Positions 20,343 to 47,930 of a DNA stretch of 47,952 bases are shown one piece after another; the stretch's first letter is position 1; every line of letters starts with the position of its first letter. The notes beneath the pieces are model-generated. The model did not search any database, had not been told where the DNA came from, and saw nothing but the letters and a program-made list of their open reading frames with translations. Made by a program: the position numbers and the translations under genes. Source of the stretch: Candidatus Adiutrix sp. (lineage in GTDB: Bacteria; Desulfobacterota; Desulfarculia; Adiutricales; Adiutricaceae). The DNA is taken from assembly GCA_031263565.1 (NCBI GenBank), contig JAISFR010000072.1, positions 1 to 47,952 of the forward strand, in the 5' to 3' direction.

Positions 20343-20387
20343 AAAGTTTGACGAAATAATTTTCAGCGGCTTGGCAGGGGATTGGAT

Positions 20388-21626
20388 ATGGCTGAAGTCA
20401 CCAGAAGAAGCAATATGAGCATTGAGCAGGTGCTCAAGCCCCAGACCAGGCTAGACCTGATATTTGACGTCGACCTCATCAATGATTACATTGATGTCCG
20501 CAGCGTCATGGTTCAGGAGGTCGGCCCCAGTCAGGTGATCGTCAGCCAGTCCGATCCCCCGATCCTCAAATCAATGGTCGGCCGCTCCCTGGAGGCCACT
20601 TTTGTCCGTCGGGAGCCGGTGACTTCAGAGATCATCCGCTGGGGCTGGAACTGCCAGGTGATGGAACTTATCGGCAATTACCAGTTGCGGCCGGATGATC
20701 CGGAAAGCATTCCGGCGGTGGTCATCAGCCCGCCCGGCCCCGGCAGCCTGACCGAGACCAACGCCCGTATGGATTATCGTCTGAGCATCACCGCCGACCG
20801 CCGAATCTCCATTCAGACCCATCCCTCCTTCGGCCGGGTGACCTTGCTCGATTTTTCGGCCGGCGGGGTGCTGATCGGCATTCCCCGCCCGCCTCAGGCC
20901 AAGGTGGGCATGCGGCTGTGGTTTACGCTTTTTTGCCCGGTCCAGTTCTCCCCCGGGCAGCAGACCACCATCAACGGCGAGGCCGAGGTGGTCCGGGTCA
21001 CCTCCAGCGAAGGTGAACAGTACGCCCGGGTGGGTTTGAAATTCCTGGATCTGGATTTAAGCGCCACCAGGGCTCTGCAAAAAGCCATAAATTTTTATAT
21101 GCTGGAAGAGCAGCGCGGCCGCAATCGCAATATGCCGCCGGCCGACGCCCAGTCTGGCCAACAGCTTCAGCCCGGCCAACAGCTTCAACCCGGCCACCCG
21201 GTTCAACCCGGCCACCCGGCTCAACCCGGCCAACAGATTCAACCCGGCTACCCGGCTCATCCCGGCTACCCGGTTCAACCCGGCCACCCGGTTCAACCCG
21301 GCTACCCGGCTCAACCCGGCCAACAGATTCAACCCGGCTACCCGGTTCAACCCGGCCAACAGGTTCAGTCCGGCCACCCGGCCCGGCCCGGCCGCCCGGT
21401 TCAGCCCGGCCACCCGGCCCGGCCCGGCCACCCGGTTCAACCCGGCCACCCGGCTCAGCCCGGCTACCAGGTTCAACCCGGCCAACAGGTTCAACCCGGT
21501 CATCCGGGCCAACCGGGCCAACCGGGCGCGGCCCCTCCTCAGGGTCCGGCGCTTCAATCCGGGCTTGCTCCTCCCGGCGGTAAAATCCCGGGGGGCGGGA
21601 CCCCGCCCGTCACTCCCGCTTCTTAG
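20388..21626 (+). CDS. PilZ-domain c-di-GMP-binding protein with Pro/Gln/Gly hexapeptide-repeat tail
   Basis: 412 residues. Residues 1-120 form a YcgR-N-like (PilZN) flagellar-brake-type beta domain ([23 protein letters not shown]). The PilZ domain follows, with the c-di-GMP motif RMDYR near residues 127-131 and DFSAGG near 154-159, so both binding motifs look intact. From about residue 258 the protein becomes about 20 tandem copies of a hexapeptide of the form PG-[HYQR]-[PQ]-[VAIL]-Q, ending in a Pro/Gly-rich tail. This tail is likely extended and may serve as a spacer or protein-binding platform. The ATG at 20388 has GGGG 7 bases upstream. No membrane segment is seen. The repeat tail is not a normal part of PilZ proteins. 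Confidence 0.88.
21150..21522 (+). repeat. Coding minisatellite, about 20 units of 18 bp
   Basis: Tandem in-frame 18-bp units of the type CAACCCGGCCACCCGGTT, varying mostly at the fourth to sixth codons (His, Tyr or Gln; Pro or Gln; Val, Ala, Ile or Leu). Because the unit is a multiple of three, changes in copy number would lengthen or shorten the PilZ protein tail without a frameshift. The GC-rich opposite strand is also open through the array, a by-product of the repeat. Confidence 0.9.
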
Positions 21627-29923: not shown

Positions 29924-30286
29924 TTTCCGCCCTTCGCTTCTGAAAAAAATCGGTTGCGGCTTGGGAGACAAAATTACAATAATTTAAACAAATTGACCGG
30001 CAGCCCCGCTGTTTTTTCCAAAAATTGACCTCAAACCCGCACCTTTCCCGCACTGTTCAATTTTTCCACGCCTGATATAATTACGTAATTTTCCAGCATT
30101 TTTCCATGCAGGAGTTGTGTTACGATATGGCGCAGGCTAAACCCCCAGACCTTTATGGTCCTCGTATTTTCAAGGCGGCTTTGTGCGCGGAGCAAGCGTC
30201 TTTACGCTCGTCTGCCGTACCGGCAAAGGGAAGACGCATTGCATTGTGAACCATATATCCGTGACCGCATTCAGAAAGGAGAACCC
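29924..30286 (+). promoter_or_regulatory. Intergenic region with autotransporter promoter elements
   Basis: 363 bases with no gene. TATAAT at 30076-30081 overlaps a perfect palindrome, AATTACGTAATT (30079-30090), suggesting an operator on the -10 box. No good -35 element is seen, which fits an activator-dependent promoter. TACGTAATT recurs in the regulator's own promoter region at about 26993-27001. A strong ribosome site, AAGGAG (30275-30280), precedes the autotransporter ATG. Confidence 0.5.
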
Positions 30287-31369
30287 ATGAACCATACCCT
30301 GTCCCGCACCGGTTTGTATTTTTTCGCGGCCTGCTTTCTGGCCTGGAGTCTCTTTTCGCCGGGCGGAGCAATGGCCGCGAACACCACGATCAACGACAAC
30401 ACCAGTGGTCCATATACTGGCCTCTATGGCAACGACGGAACCGCGACCACCCCTACTGCTGACACATATGCCAGCGGCAACATGCTTGTTCTCGGCAACG
30501 GTTACACCGGCCCGACCATTACCGATACTTCTGTCGTGACAGTTGCCGGCGGGTATGCTCCCGGCAACTCCAACGGCGACTCCAGCAGCAACACGCTGAC
30601 CATCAACAGCGGGACCTCTTTTACTGCTACCGGCTTTACCAATATTTATGGCGGGAGGGTGGCAGCAGGCAGCGGGAACGCCGCTGGCAATACCGTTACT
30701 ATGGGGGATTTCACACAAGGGAGTGGCAATGTTGTTGTTTATGGCGGACGCGCTCACGGCAGCGGAAATGCTTCGACCAATGGAGTTACCATCGGTTCCG
30801 GCAACACAAATGATTTTTCTGGGATTTACGGTGCTTATGCCAATAGCGGAAATGCCATAAGCAATACTGTAACCATCAACGGCGGCGGACAAATCGCCTT
30901 TGTTAATGGCGGTTATTCCGCTGACGGCAATGCCGGAGGCTCTGGAGTCGGCAACGTCGTCAACATCAGCGGCGGCAACGCAAATATCCTGAACGGTATT
31001 GGGGGAGGAAACAGCAACAGCGGTAGCAGTGGCTCCGCCAGCTACAACGAGGTGAATATCGGGAGCGGCTATACAGGCACAATCGGCGGCAATGTCCACG
31101 GCGGGTGGGTAAGCGGCGGCAGCGGCAACGCGGAGCATAATAGCGTCACCATCGCCGGAGGGACTCTCCAAGGCGGCGCTGCCGTCATAGGCGGCCACTC
31201 CACCAATGGCGCCGCCACCGACAACACCGTCAGCATCAGCGGCGGCAGGGTAGCCGGCGATATTCGCGGCGGGAGCACAACTACAGGCTCCGCTACCGGC
31301 AACACCGTCAGCATCACCACCACCGGCGAAACCTATCTGAACATCTACGGCGGGTATGGGGGGGGGTAG
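30287..31369 (+). CDS. Autotransporter, N-terminal part (signal peptide and passenger), out of frame at a G9 tract
   Basis: 360 codons from the ATG with a strong AAGGAG site to a TAG right after a G9 run. A Sec signal peptide (cleavage after AMAA) is followed by a passenger of imperfect repeats of about 25-30 residues. Each combines an IYGG-type turn, a GSGNA segment and an NTVTI strand, as in right-handed beta-helix adhesins. Sequence up to the G tract is IYGGYGGG. With eight Gs the frame would continue as SGDLFTGNTLNL, which is the expected next part of the repeat, into the 31356-33326 frame. As sequenced, the product is a truncated, secreted passenger without a translocator. I read this as a phase-OFF allele, though a homopolymer sequencing error is possible. 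Confidence 0.88.
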   Translation: MNHTLSRTGLYFFAACFLAWSLFSPGGAMAANTTINDNTSGPYTGLYGNDGTATTPTADTYASGNMLVLGNGYTGPTITDTSVVTVAGGYAPGNSNGDSSSNTLTINSGTSFTATGFTNIYGGRVAAGSGNAAGNTVTMGDFTQGSGNVVVYGGRAHGSGNASTNGVTIGSGNTNDFSGIYGAYANSGNAISNTVTINGGGQIAFVNGGYSADGNAGGSGVGNVVNISGGNANILNGIGGGNSNSGSSGSASYNEVNIGSGYTGTIGGNVHGGWVSGGSGNAEHNSVTIAGGTLQGGAAVIGGHSTNGAATDNTVSISGGRVAGDIRGGSTTTGSATGNTVSITTTGETYLNIYGGYGGG

Positions 31370-33326
31370 CGGCGACCTGTTCACCGGCAACACCCTGAAT
31401 CTCGCCGCCGGGAATGCAGTCAGTTCCGTGCACAATACGGCTGTCCTCAACTTTACTTCCGGCGGAAGCGCGGGTATCAACACTCTGGACACCACAGCCA
31501 CCGGAGCCGTAGGCAGCCCCAAAATGACCCTCAACACCTATACTCACGCCGTCGATTTCGGCGGGGTCATCAACGGCACGGGCGGCATCGACAAAACCGG
31601 CGCAGGCACCCTGACTCTGAGCGGAACAAACACTTACAGCGGCGGAACCACCGTGAGCGCCGGAACCCTGGCCGGGAATATCGCTTCCGGCACGGACCTT
31701 ACCGTGGCAAGCGGCGCGACCTATGACGGAAGCGGTGCGGCCCGTTCCGTGGGCGCTCTTGCCGATGCGGGTTCAATCATCAACACCCACGGCCTGACCG
31801 CGCAAAGCGGCTCTTTCAGTGGCGTCATTTCAGGCGCGGGCGGCCTGACCAAGACCGGAGCCGGAACCCTGACCCTGAGCGGCACGAATACCTTCACCGG
31901 ATCTCTCAGCATTGACGCGGGCGGTCTGACCCTCGGCGCGGGCGGCTCTTTGGCTACGAACTCTCTGTCTCTGGCCACGAACACAGTCTTTGACTATTCC
32001 GCCGCTTCATACGCCTTCCATAACCTGACCGTGCGCGGCCTGAATACGCACATCGTCCCCAGCGCGGCGGGCGCGGATTTCAGCGGCGCGAACCTTGCCT
32101 ATATTGTGCCGCAGACAGCCGCGAACGGAGCCACCCTGCTTACCGTACAAGGTGGGGCGACCATTGACGCGGCCACCGCCGTCAGCCTCGCTTACGCTTC
32201 GGGCAGGCCAAACATCAACGCGGGCGAAGGTTTCACCTTACTGAACGCTACAACTCTGACGGACAGCGGCTTTACGCAGCTTACCGTACAGACCCCGAGT
32301 GGCGATATCTACACCCTGAATGTTTCCGGCACGCAGCTTCTGGCCGTGCTGCAACAGCTTTCCCCCACCGGCCCGGCCTATGAGCGCCTCAAAGCCTATG
32401 CCGAAAGCCGGGCCGCGTCCCTGGCCTTCGCCAACCAGGGCCTTGATTTTATCCTGAACCGGGGTTTCGGTTCCGCCCTGGCCACGACAGCGGGACCGGG
32501 TTTCCGCTTCGGCAGTTTCGGGGGCCTGGGCGGCGGCTGGTCGCGCTATACCACAGGTTCACATGTGGACGTTTCCGGCCTGTCGCTGTTGGCGGGTCTG
32601 GCCCTCGGTAATGACCTAGCCCCCGGACGCCTGACCCTCGGGGCCTTCTTCGAGGGCGGATGGGGCAATTACAACTCCCATAACAGCTTCAGCAACGCGG
32701 CCTCCGTGGACGGCAAGGGGGACAGTTCCTACTACGGCGGCGGCATCCTGGGCCGCTACGACCTGACGGAAGGCGCTCTCTCCGGCCTGTATTTCGACGC
32801 TTCGGCCCGCCTGGGCCGGACGGAAACGGATTTCCGCAGCGGCGACATCCGGTACAACGGCTGGAACGCCAATTTTGAAAGCTCATCCCTTTACTATGGC
32901 CTGCACGGCGGGTTTGGCTATGTCTGGAGCTTTACGGACCAGGCTGCCCTCGACCTGTCCGCGAAACTGCTCTGGACACGGCAGAAAGGCGACAGCCTGA
33001 CCGTGTACCAGGACCGCCTGCGCTTCAAGGACGCCGATTCCCTGCGTACCCGCCTGGGCGGGCGCTTCGCCTACTCCGTCAACGACTACGTCAGCCCCTA
33101 TCTCGGCGCGTATTGGGAACACGAGTTCGACGGCCAACAGCGTATCGCGGTGAACGGCCAGCGCCTTTCTTCCCCGTCCCTCAAGGGCGATACGGGCCTG
33201 GCTGAACTCGGCCTCTCCCTTAAGCCTTCGCCAAGCCTGCCCCTGTCCTTTGATTTGGGGGTGCAGGGCTATGTGGGGACAAGGGAAGGCGTGGCGGGGA
33301 GCTTGCAGATCAAGTTGGAATTTTAG
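31356..33326 (+). CDS. Autotransporter, C-terminal part (passenger end, PATR repeats and beta-barrel)
   Basis: The frame is open from the G tract to 33326; the apparent ATG inside the tract is not a real start. Two passenger-associated transport repeats (GIDKTGAGTLTLSGTNTYSGG and GLTKTGAGTLTLSGTNTFTGS) lie near 31590-31910. A linker helix (YERLKAYAESRAASLAFANQ) leads to a classical type Va barrel of about 270 residues ending in KLEF, with the C-terminal Phe required for Bam-dependent insertion. Joined to 30287-31366 by loss of one G (or gain of two), it makes a full autotransporter of about 1,012 residues. Surface display or adhesion is the expected role; the ligand is unknown. Confidence 0.9.
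   Translation: MGGGSGDLFTGNTLNLAAGNAVSSVHNTAVLNFTSGGSAGINTLDTTATGAVGSPKMTLNTYTHAVDFGGVINGTGGIDKTGAGTLTLSGTNTYSGGTTVSAGTLAGNIASGTDLTVASGATYDGSGAARSVGALADAGSIINTHGLTAQSGSFSGVISGAGGLTKTGAGTLTLSGTNTFTGSLSIDAGGLTLGAGGSLATNSLSLATNTVFDYSAASYAFHNLTVRGLNTHIVPSAAGADFSGANLAYIVPQTAANGATLLTVQGGATIDAATAVSLAYASGRPNINAGEGFTLLNATTLTDSGFTQLTVQTPSGDIYTLNVSGTQLLAVLQQLSPTGPAYERLKAYAESRAASLAFANQGLDFILNRGFGSALATTAGPGFRFGSFGGLGGGWSRYTTGSHVDVSGLSLLAGLALGNDLAPGRLTLGAFFEGGWGNYNSHNSFSNAASVDGKGDSSYYGGGILGRYDLTEGALSGLYFDASARLGRTETDFRSGDIRYNGWNANFESSSLYYGLHGGFGYVWSFTDQAALDLSAKLLWTRQKGDSLTVYQDRLRFKDADSLRTRLGGRFAYSVNDYVSPYLGAYWEHEFDGQQRIAVNGQRLSSPSLKGDTGLAELGLSLKPSPSLPLSFDLGVQGYVGTREGVAGSLQIKLEF
31358..31366 (+). repeat. Homopolymeric G9 tract at the autotransporter frame break
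   Basis: Nine consecutive Gs, with the TAG stop directly after them in the frame of the signal peptide. Eight or eleven Gs would join the two halves in frame. Poly-G tracts of 8-12 are the classic contingency-locus element in Campylobacter, Helicobacter and Neisseria surface genes. Confidence 0.95.
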
Positions 33327-47239: not shown

Positions 47240-47325
47240 CTTGTTTTCCTTTCTGACTTGTCGGCTTTTCTGCTGCCCGTTCTCTTTCCCGCCCGGATTC
47301 CGTGCCGAACGGGCTTGAACCATAT

Positions 47326-47595
47326 CTATCGGTCTTTTTCCTCCAGCCTTCGACAGGCCTGGATAACGGCCTTAAAAATATTCTGGACCGCCTCCGGGGA
47401 CAGCGGCCGGGCCTGACGGCCCAGGCGCGCCAGTATTTCGGCCTCCCTGGTCGGGTCGAGAACCGGGCGGCCGGCGGCCTTTTTCAGGCGCCCTATTGCC
47501 AGGGCCAGGGCGGCCCGTTGCTTCAGAAGTTCCAGCATTCGCCGGTCGAGGCGGTCGATTTCCGAGCGGAGTTGATCCAGGCGAGGCTCAGTCAT
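47326..47595 (-). CDS. Chorismate mutase, AroQ class
   Basis: 89 residues, all helical. The first helix LRSEIDRLDRRMLELLKQRAALA carries the catalytic Arg and the Lys-x6-Arg pattern; the second (DPTREAEILARLGRQ) and third helices complete the AroQ fold. Chorismate to prephenate is the committed step towards Phe and Tyr. The stand-alone enzyme lacks prephenate dehydratase or regulatory domains, so control is probably at transcription; the leader region just upstream has the layout of an attenuator. The ATG overlaps a longer readable frame through the terminator but has its own GAGGGT ribosome site. Confidence 0.95.
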   Translation of the reverse strand: MTEPRLDQLRSEIDRLDRRMLELLKQRAALALAIGRLKKAAGRPVLDPTREAEILARLGRQARPLSPEAVQNIFKAVIQACRRLEEKDR

Positions 47596-47608
47596 GCCGT
47601 ACCCTCAT

Positions 47609-47639
47609 AAAAAAACCGCCGGCGGTCTGGTCGGCGGTT
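47609..47639 (-). terminator. Attenuator terminator before the chorismate mutase gene
   Basis: On the minus strand AACCGCCG (47639-47632) pairs with CGGCGGTT (47621-47614) and the U-run continues to 47609 (seven A on the plus strand). It ends 14 bases upstream of the ATG. The loop contains CCAGACC (47630-47624), which is complementary to GGTCTGG (47684-47678) and to GGTCTG (47670-47665) in the leader, giving competing pairings. Confidence 0.85.
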
Positions 47640-47663
47640 GAGTAAGAACTATGGCAGAGACTC

Positions 47664-47771
47664 TCAGACCTCACCCTCCAGACCCGGGCAGACATAAAAA
47701 TACCAGATTTCAGATCCCTGACAAGAACTTTGAAAATCAGCGGTCAGATTCCTGGAAAGCGTGAAAAACAT
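47664..47771 (-). CDS. Putative aromatic amino acid leader peptide (attenuation)
   Basis: A 35-codon ORF beginning ATG-TTT-TTC and ending GTC-TGA. Codons 24-27 are TGG TAT TTT TAT, that is Trp-Tyr-Phe-Tyr, and there are Phe codons at positions 2, 3 and 13: seven aromatic residues in 35. It lies between a strong promoter and an intrinsic terminator upstream of chorismate mutase, as in trp and phe leader peptides. When charged aromatic tRNAs run short, the ribosome would stall at the run and alter RNA folding. The ribosome site is weak (GTGG at a distance), which is the main reservation. Confidence 0.65.
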   Translation of the reverse strand: MFFTLSRNLTADFQSSCQGSEIWYFYVCPGLEGEV

Positions 47772-47827
47772 GATAAGCCACGATGTCTTTTGATTTTGAG
47801 CGGCCGGCGCCCGCCTGATTTTCGGAA

Positions 47828-47856
47828 ATAATAGCACCCCGTTGAGCGGCTGTCAA
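47828..47856 (-). promoter_or_regulatory. Promoter of the chorismate mutase operon
   Basis: On the minus strand TTGACA (47856-47851), 17 bases, TATTAT (47833-47828), with TGC directly before the -10 box. It is near consensus and should start transcription near 47821, about 50 bases before the leader peptide ATG. Confidence 0.8.
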
Positions 47857-47930
47857 GATCGTCTCTCAGCCAGTCAGCCAGGCTCGCCTGTTCGCCTCGT
47901 TCGCTTTGACTTTCTTGTCGATTTCCCATA

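Follow-up and report, generated by a model that had tools for sequence, protein, structure and literature searches.

Results

The locus at the contig end

The window analysed here is an entire contig of 47952 bases (G000:C54), and the element of interest lies on its minus strand at the contig end. In 5' to 3' order it comprises a predicted promoter, a 35-codon leader, a terminator, a gene for a stand-alone chorismate mutase (CM) and an aminotransferase gene. The putative sigma-70-type promoter TTGACA-N17-TATTAT (47828..47856, minus strand) agrees with the consensus at 11 of 12 positions and has a TG preceding the -10 hexamer. The leader ORF (47664..47771, minus strand; ATG at 47771, TGA at 47664) encodes 35 amino acids, MFFTLSRNLTADFQSSCQGSEIWYFYVCPGLEGEV, and contains the aromatic run TGG TAT TTT TAT at codons 23–26 (W23, Y24, F25 and Y26; 47694..47705, minus strand). 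Five runs of at least four W/Y/F residues occur in the six frames of the window, and the leader run alone holds all three letters. No strong ribosome-binding site was seen 5' of the leader ATG, and the leader start signal is weak. An alternative leader ORF, MSARVWRVRSES..., at 47695-47588, which crosses the terminator, was rejected as it is devoid of an aromatic run.

The intrinsic terminator AACCGCCG/CGGCGGTT (47609..47639, minus strand) has an 8-bp stem and a run of seven T, and a homologous terminator is found in 27 family leaders. Behind it, the CM (PF01817, 89 aa, no dehydratase domain) is encoded at 47326..47595 on the minus strand, followed by a class I/II aminotransferase (NF005305; 46040..47239, minus strand), for which an earlier ATG at 47323 is possible. 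The near-consensus promoter, the 35-codon leader with its aromatic codons and the terminator just before the gene, as described in the first-pass annotation of this DNA, are therefore all present.

Other parts of the window hold features of a different kind. Two adjacent plus-strand ORFs at 30155-31369 and 31356-33326 lie in different frames and overlap by 14 bases; the former is repeat-rich (GNTVTI-type), the latter ends barrel-like, and the pair resembles a single autotransporter-type adhesin that a frameshift has interrupted. A 414-aa ORF at 20382-21626 (plus strand) has a long C-terminal Pro/Gly/Gln-rich repeat of PGQQ, PGHP and PGYP units.

Predicted switching of the leader RNA

Three copies of GUCUG are present in the window leader: GGTCTGG at 47684-47678, GGTCTG at 47670-47665 and GUCUGCCC at 47694-47687. 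The first, GGUCUGG in the RNA (47678..47684, minus strand), lies immediately 3' of the run and is the predicted 5' arm of an antiterminator whose 3' arm is predicted to be CCAGACC in the terminator loop (47624..47630, minus strand); one in 200 shuffles paired equally well. The second copy (47665..47670, minus strand) overlaps the leader stop codon and would be masked by a ribosome at the stop. The third (47687..47694, minus strand) starts on the final base of the run and continues through V27-C28 into P29. It had been proposed that two GGUCUG copies compete for one CCAGACC. The pieces of this proposal are there, but only GGUCUGG yields a 7-bp pair with an extended helix, so that such competition is unnecessary.

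The effect of ribosome position was calculated by masking the RNA, codon by codon, up to the downstream edge of the ribosome (12 nt past the first base of the A site), and reading out the probability of the 8-bp terminator helix, P(terminator). With W23, Y24, F25 and Y26 in the A site this probability was 0.00, 0.00, 0.12 and 0.13, and from V27 onward it was 0.96. The flip point shifted by at most one codon from the end of the run at footprint edges of 9–15 nt. The switch point thus coincides exactly with the end of the run, and folding of the leader bears out the first-pass view of a ribosome-stalling attenuator. In these folds the antiterminator excludes the terminator and would be freed when a ribosome stalls at the aromatic codons, with a stall at any of the four predicted to suffice. 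In the absence of a ribosome P(terminator) was 0.14, which means that the fold favours readthrough. For this reason no classical protecting (pause) 1:2 hairpin was identified in the window leader.

As a control, the 53-nt spacer between run and terminator was shuffled with dinucleotides and terminator kept. Only 7 of 2000 shuffles stayed below 0.2 at each of the four aromatic codons and rose above 0.8 at the following one, a flip exactly after the fourth codon; the first half of this criterion alone was satisfied by 85 of 2000, and 6 of 2000 reached the real P(terminator) at the Trp codon or lower. Folding of the entire leader is no more stable than that of shuffles (z 0.93). By chance, the terminator of an upstream unit might simply lie beside a short ORF and a constitutive promoter, and two observations lean that way: a looser definition of the switch was satisfied by 79 of 1000 shuffles, and the leader peptide is without a sequence relative in 60 genomes. 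The comparison with related genomes described below bears directly on this explanation.

An aromatic leader ahead of DAHP synthase genes

Searched as a protein query against 60 relatives, the leader peptide gave seven weak matches besides itself (E 0.07–0.88). Of these seven (L035–L041), L036 and L037 had their neighbourhoods viewed; these two had no aromatic genes nearby and were taken as chance matches. An aromatic leader before pheA was found in one of the regions of 29 relatives (L015), such leaders being few because aroF comes first in most relatives. The same-genus genome G003 (L084) has an operon aroF-pheA-aminotransferase with a leader, ...WLIANWFGFFYFYFRGRVA, 5' of aroF. Its terminator stem has the letters of the window stem, and its promoter hexamers and their spacing are identical to those of the window, while its antiterminator pair, GGGUUGCC:GGUAACCC, differs.

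Regions before the DAHP synthase gene (aroF) were then the proper place for comparison. We assembled 69 of them, consisting of 29 top-listed loci and 40 further regions from the class and phylum, with lower-ranked homologs omitted. A fixed rule (an ORF of 10–90 codons, at least five W/Y/F in nine residues, and a hairpin with a T-run) was matched in 50 of the 69 regions and in none of the 69 reverse strands; weak cases among the 50 are, for example, L158 (FWWWFSW) and L141. Six further regions (L112, L125, L133, L136, L140 and L149) were picked up with a covariance model and by inspection, giving an aromatic leader with a terminator ahead of DAHP synthase in 56 of 69 regions. An upstream promoter-like site matching at least 10 of 12 positions was present in 36 of 51 leaders, against 24 of 1020 shuffles.

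The equilibrium fold switched inside the run or at its end in 12 of 51 leaders, the window included. In 35 of 51 relatives no codon gave a P(terminator) below 0.5, and the antiterminator never wins at equilibrium; the terminators of these leaders are very strong, and a switch would have to be kinetic, during transcription. Antiterminator pairing was better than 95% of shuffles in 36 of 51 leaders and fell below that in 15, a figure that is partly due to the script having used the second of tandem terminators in six of them. These six leaders (L126, L127, L129, L143, L150 and L156) have an aromatic run followed by two terminators in tandem.

Covariation and membership of the window copy

Both helices were examined in a MAFFT alignment of 27 relatives and the window. 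The antiterminator helix is paired in 87.2% of cells, with two-sided changes at six of eight pairs, and its covariation score of 0.361 compares with 0.178 for shuffles (none of 500 as high) and at most 0.170 for slid versions. The terminator helix is paired in 95.6% of cells, with two-sided changes at seven of nine pairs and a score of 0.345 against 0.184 (none of 500 shuffles). In the window row MAFFT placed the second GGUCUG, not the functional copy, in the antiterminator columns. Without this row the antiterminator remains paired in 87.4% of cells with a score of 0.353, and the count of pairs with two-sided change is then equalled by 93 of 500 shuffles.

Among the 18 class-level rows, GUC[UC]G[CU]CC:GGGC[AG]GAC is paired in every cell (100%). 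In three of these rows (L125, L132 and L139) U-A has become C-G, which changes a leader codon from Cys to Arg, and each change is matched by a compensating one in the terminator. The conserved V-C-P of the peptide therefore reflects a constraint on the RNA. The first-pass annotation had made conservation in close relatives a test of its proposal. At the level of peptide letters there is none, while the RNA is conserved, and the proposal withstood its test in a stronger form: the aromatic-run leader, the terminator and the covarying antiterminator recur at family, class and phylum level.

The class-level relatives pair GUCUGCCC. The window retains these letters as V27-C28-P29 with their full partner absent, and its terminator loop matches the neighbouring GGUCUGG instead. 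Membership of the window copy was judged with a covariance model, R1, built from the 27 relatives with the window left out. The element was the top match of R1 in the window, at full length, with 28.9 bits and an E value of 5e-5; the next match scored 11.8 bits. The class model R2 also placed it first in the window, weakly, with 13.1 bits and an E value of 0.087. Covariation of the helices refutes chance for the entire family, and the R1 match refutes it for the window copy. Taken together with the spacer shuffles and the rule matches absent from reverse strands, this makes a fortuitous arrangement very improbable.

A T-box, a riboswitch or a protein-bound leader might stand in place of ribosome stalling, and a T-box could likewise read an aromatic tRNA. 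Against Rfam release 15, however, the window region gave no match at E up to 1, including Phe_leader, Trp_leader and T-box, and eight relatives gave none at the gathering score. What the leaders have in common is a reading frame whose aromatic codons end at the switch point. We consider such a mechanism hardly credible here, and ribosome stalling remains the preferred reading.

Spread in the phylum and downstream genes

R2 was trained on the 18 class-level rows, none of which has a W in the run. At E ≤1e-3 it had matches in 122 of the 297 phylum genomes searched. For this threshold the figure is an upper estimate, as some matches are partial or cover only the terminator, and others may have been dropped by stricter filters. 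Of the best 30 R2 loci, seven came from training-set genomes, and the other 23 were examined. All 23 have an aromatic-run leader, a count that is not independent of R2, whose model includes the T-rich run.

The downstream gene was readable in 22 of the 23 loci. By NCBIfam models above their curated cut-offs it encodes DAHP synthase in 13 and 2-amino-3,7-dideoxy-D-threo-hept-6-ulosonate (ADTH) synthase in nine. At L190 neither gene was found in the available stretch. Across L176-L198 the attenuator is thus followed by DAHP synthase in some loci and by ADTH synthase in others (e.g., L180:1683-2480 and L188:528-1319). Each of these enzymes starts its own route to dehydroquinate. As both genes carry the attenuator, it tracks the pathway step and not the enzyme.

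The window copy precedes a stand-alone CM and does not share the family trait of lying before the first enzyme of aromatic biosynthesis. We therefore call it a derived member, as CM follows it, against DAHP or ADTH synthase in 22 of 22 readable places. The description of the element as lying upstream of chorismate mutase was right for the window genome but is atypical for the family.

The operon and genome of the window copy

An ortholog of the aminotransferase lies directly 3' of pheA in G001, G002, G003 and G005, and the best match of the window aminotransferase is within its own genus (73% identity). In a quick tree of the CM domain, which is short, the window CM falls among order- and class-level sequences (support 0.991) and apart from its own genus. 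The operon may be a mosaic, because its CM groups outside the genus and its aminotransferase is typical of it. This tree does not support the idea that the stand-alone CM arose by simple truncation of a genus pheA. By tblastn the window contains no dehydratase or aroF remnant, the single aroF match (E 0.075) being chance.

The window genome (G000) is a draft of 145 contigs with 94.6% completeness. Prephenate dehydratase (PDT, PF00800) was not found in it, although 51 of 60 relatives and 14 of 14 controls have it. Neither was a DAHP synthase of the family type (class I), and the sole PF00793 member reads, from its sequence, as KdsA beside KdsC. PF00425 (TrpE, PabB and kin) had no match in G000. 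TyrA was not found either, a PDH_N match below the cut-off reading as ProC. AroA and AroC are encoded next to each other in this genome. Any one of these absences may be a gap in the assembly; gaps are less likely to account for all four. The organism may use a non-homologous aromatic route or live by scavenging.

These absences raise the question whether the window copy is a relict, inherited from a complete aroF-pheA-aminotransferase operon and losing its function as the pathway erodes. That class-I DAHP synthase, PDT, TyrA and PF00425 were not found in a genome with aroA and aroC fits such a history, as does the aromatic run, the shortest among the 51 leaders. Yet its equilibrium switch is sharper than in most relatives, promoter, leader, terminator and CM reading frame are all intact, and its antiterminator letters have changed with the pairing retained; the draft state of the genome also weakens the case for loss. 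We regard decay as unlikely and favour a working attenuator. No prephenate-using enzymes were found in the window genome, which obscures the physiological payoff of the switch and counts against our explanation.

Amino acids represented in the runs

The runs of the 51 leaders contain 252 F, 144 Y and 23 W. F and Y occur together in 50 leaders, W in 19 and all three in 18, with no W in the other 32; among the 23 phylum-level leaders, W occurs in 15 and all three aromatics in 15. The first-pass annotation considered a mixed aromatic run unusual, and these counts overturn that judgement for this lineage.

The AroR leader attenuator of Corynebacterium glutamicum aroF was reportedly described by Neshat in 2014. 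AroR is a Phe-Tyr-Phe leader before the DAHP synthase gene aroF (PMC11802643, PMC7356990) and, in the account of one review, responds to Phe and not to Tyr (PMC11802643). The codons present need therefore not be the amino acids sensed. The attenuator may be real and still sense one or two amino acids, most likely Phe and/or Tyr, with Trp incidental. The predominance of F and Y, the lack of W in 32 of 51 leaders and the reported Phe response of AroR speak for this reading; moreover, with no TrpE or other PF00425 protein found in the window genome, a Trp signal could not be answered there by Trp synthesis. On the other side, W opens the window run and a stall at it gives the lowest P(terminator) (0.00), and W occurs in 15 of 23 phylum-level runs though the 18 training rows of R2 lacked it. 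We put sensing of one or two amino acids somewhat short of even odds.

Discussion

The anatomy of the window element, its alternative folds, the placement of the switch point, and the conservation and covariation of the family were all established in silico. On these grounds the window element is, with a probability of about 0.9, a ribosome-mediated transcription attenuator and a member of a family of aro attenuators.

We infer promoter activity, translation of the leader, stalling and the amino acids sensed, and events would proceed as follows. RNA polymerase would start at the promoter and a ribosome would translate the leader. When charged Trp, Tyr or Phe tRNA is short, the ribosome would wait at codons 23–26, leaving GGUCUGG (47684-47678) free to pair with CCAGACC of the terminator loop; the terminator would be blocked, and CM and the aminotransferase would be transcribed. 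When all three are plentiful, the ribosome would advance and cover GGUCUGG, the terminator would form, and transcription would end just 5' of the CM ribosome-binding site. In relatives the attenuator would control the enzyme opening aromatic biosynthesis, either DAHP or ADTH synthase.

Ribosome-stalling attenuation is a textbook mechanism, and the classical cases are taught as pairing each leader with a single amino acid and a single operon. In the pheL-pheA and trpL attenuators of E. coli, stalling at codons for the pathway product frees an antiterminator, as predicted for the window, and the runs are essentially of a single amino acid. These two systems, which are named in the AroR review (PMC11802643), differ in the genes controlled (the P-protein and the trp operon), and the Rfam leader models miss the window region and the eight relatives compared with them.

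Nearer likenesses are found ahead of DAHP synthase genes. AroR, going by the published descriptions, on which alone the comparison is made, shares mixed aromatic codons, ribosome mediation and its position ahead of the DAHP synthase gene with the family described here; it belongs to another phylum and is reported to respond to Phe, and the parts of those accounts considered here mention no Trp codon (PMC11802643, PMC7356990). In Acholeplasma, the uORFC-13-1 motif places an upstream ORF containing Phe codon(s), together with a terminator, ahead of DAHP synthase, and attenuation has been proposed (PMC8632094). It resembles our family as a Phe-codon upstream ORF with a terminator ahead of aroF, and its description sets it apart: its 24 reported representatives all come from Acholeplasma or environmental sequences and carry one Phe codon or more, with no mixed run described (PMC8632094). 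For Shewanella, aroF and aroH are listed with candidate 5'-UTR regulatory RNAs before DAHP synthase genes, the aroF entry naming only a possible Tyr-tRNA attenuator and citing E. coli work (PMC2659441). These are likewise predicted RNAs ahead of DAHP synthase, and the entries considered here describe no family (PMC2659441).

In the open-licence literature we found no report of aromatic attenuators in this phylum, of mixed runs with Trp or of attenuators at ADTH synthase genes. The family is widespread in the phylum and apparently undescribed, and it adds an RNA family for which our searches of Rfam release 15 gave no match. The mechanism is known; the novelty lies in the family and not in the mixed run as such. 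We give even chances to a fuller reading, in which a phylum-wide OR gate for the three aromatics sits at DAHP or ADTH synthase, and in which the switch of the window has passed to a CM-aminotransferase operon, with its antiterminator moved to GGUCUGG, in a genome seemingly unable to make these amino acids.

A single leader with codons for all the products of a branched pathway would control their common first step. As the leader stays with the pathway step where the enzyme differs, it offers a testable case of multi-input sensing by translation. The attenuator may also mark, by function, which enzyme opens aromatic biosynthesis in anaerobes that have been little studied, and the window copy would test the fate of a sensor once the pathway behind it erodes.
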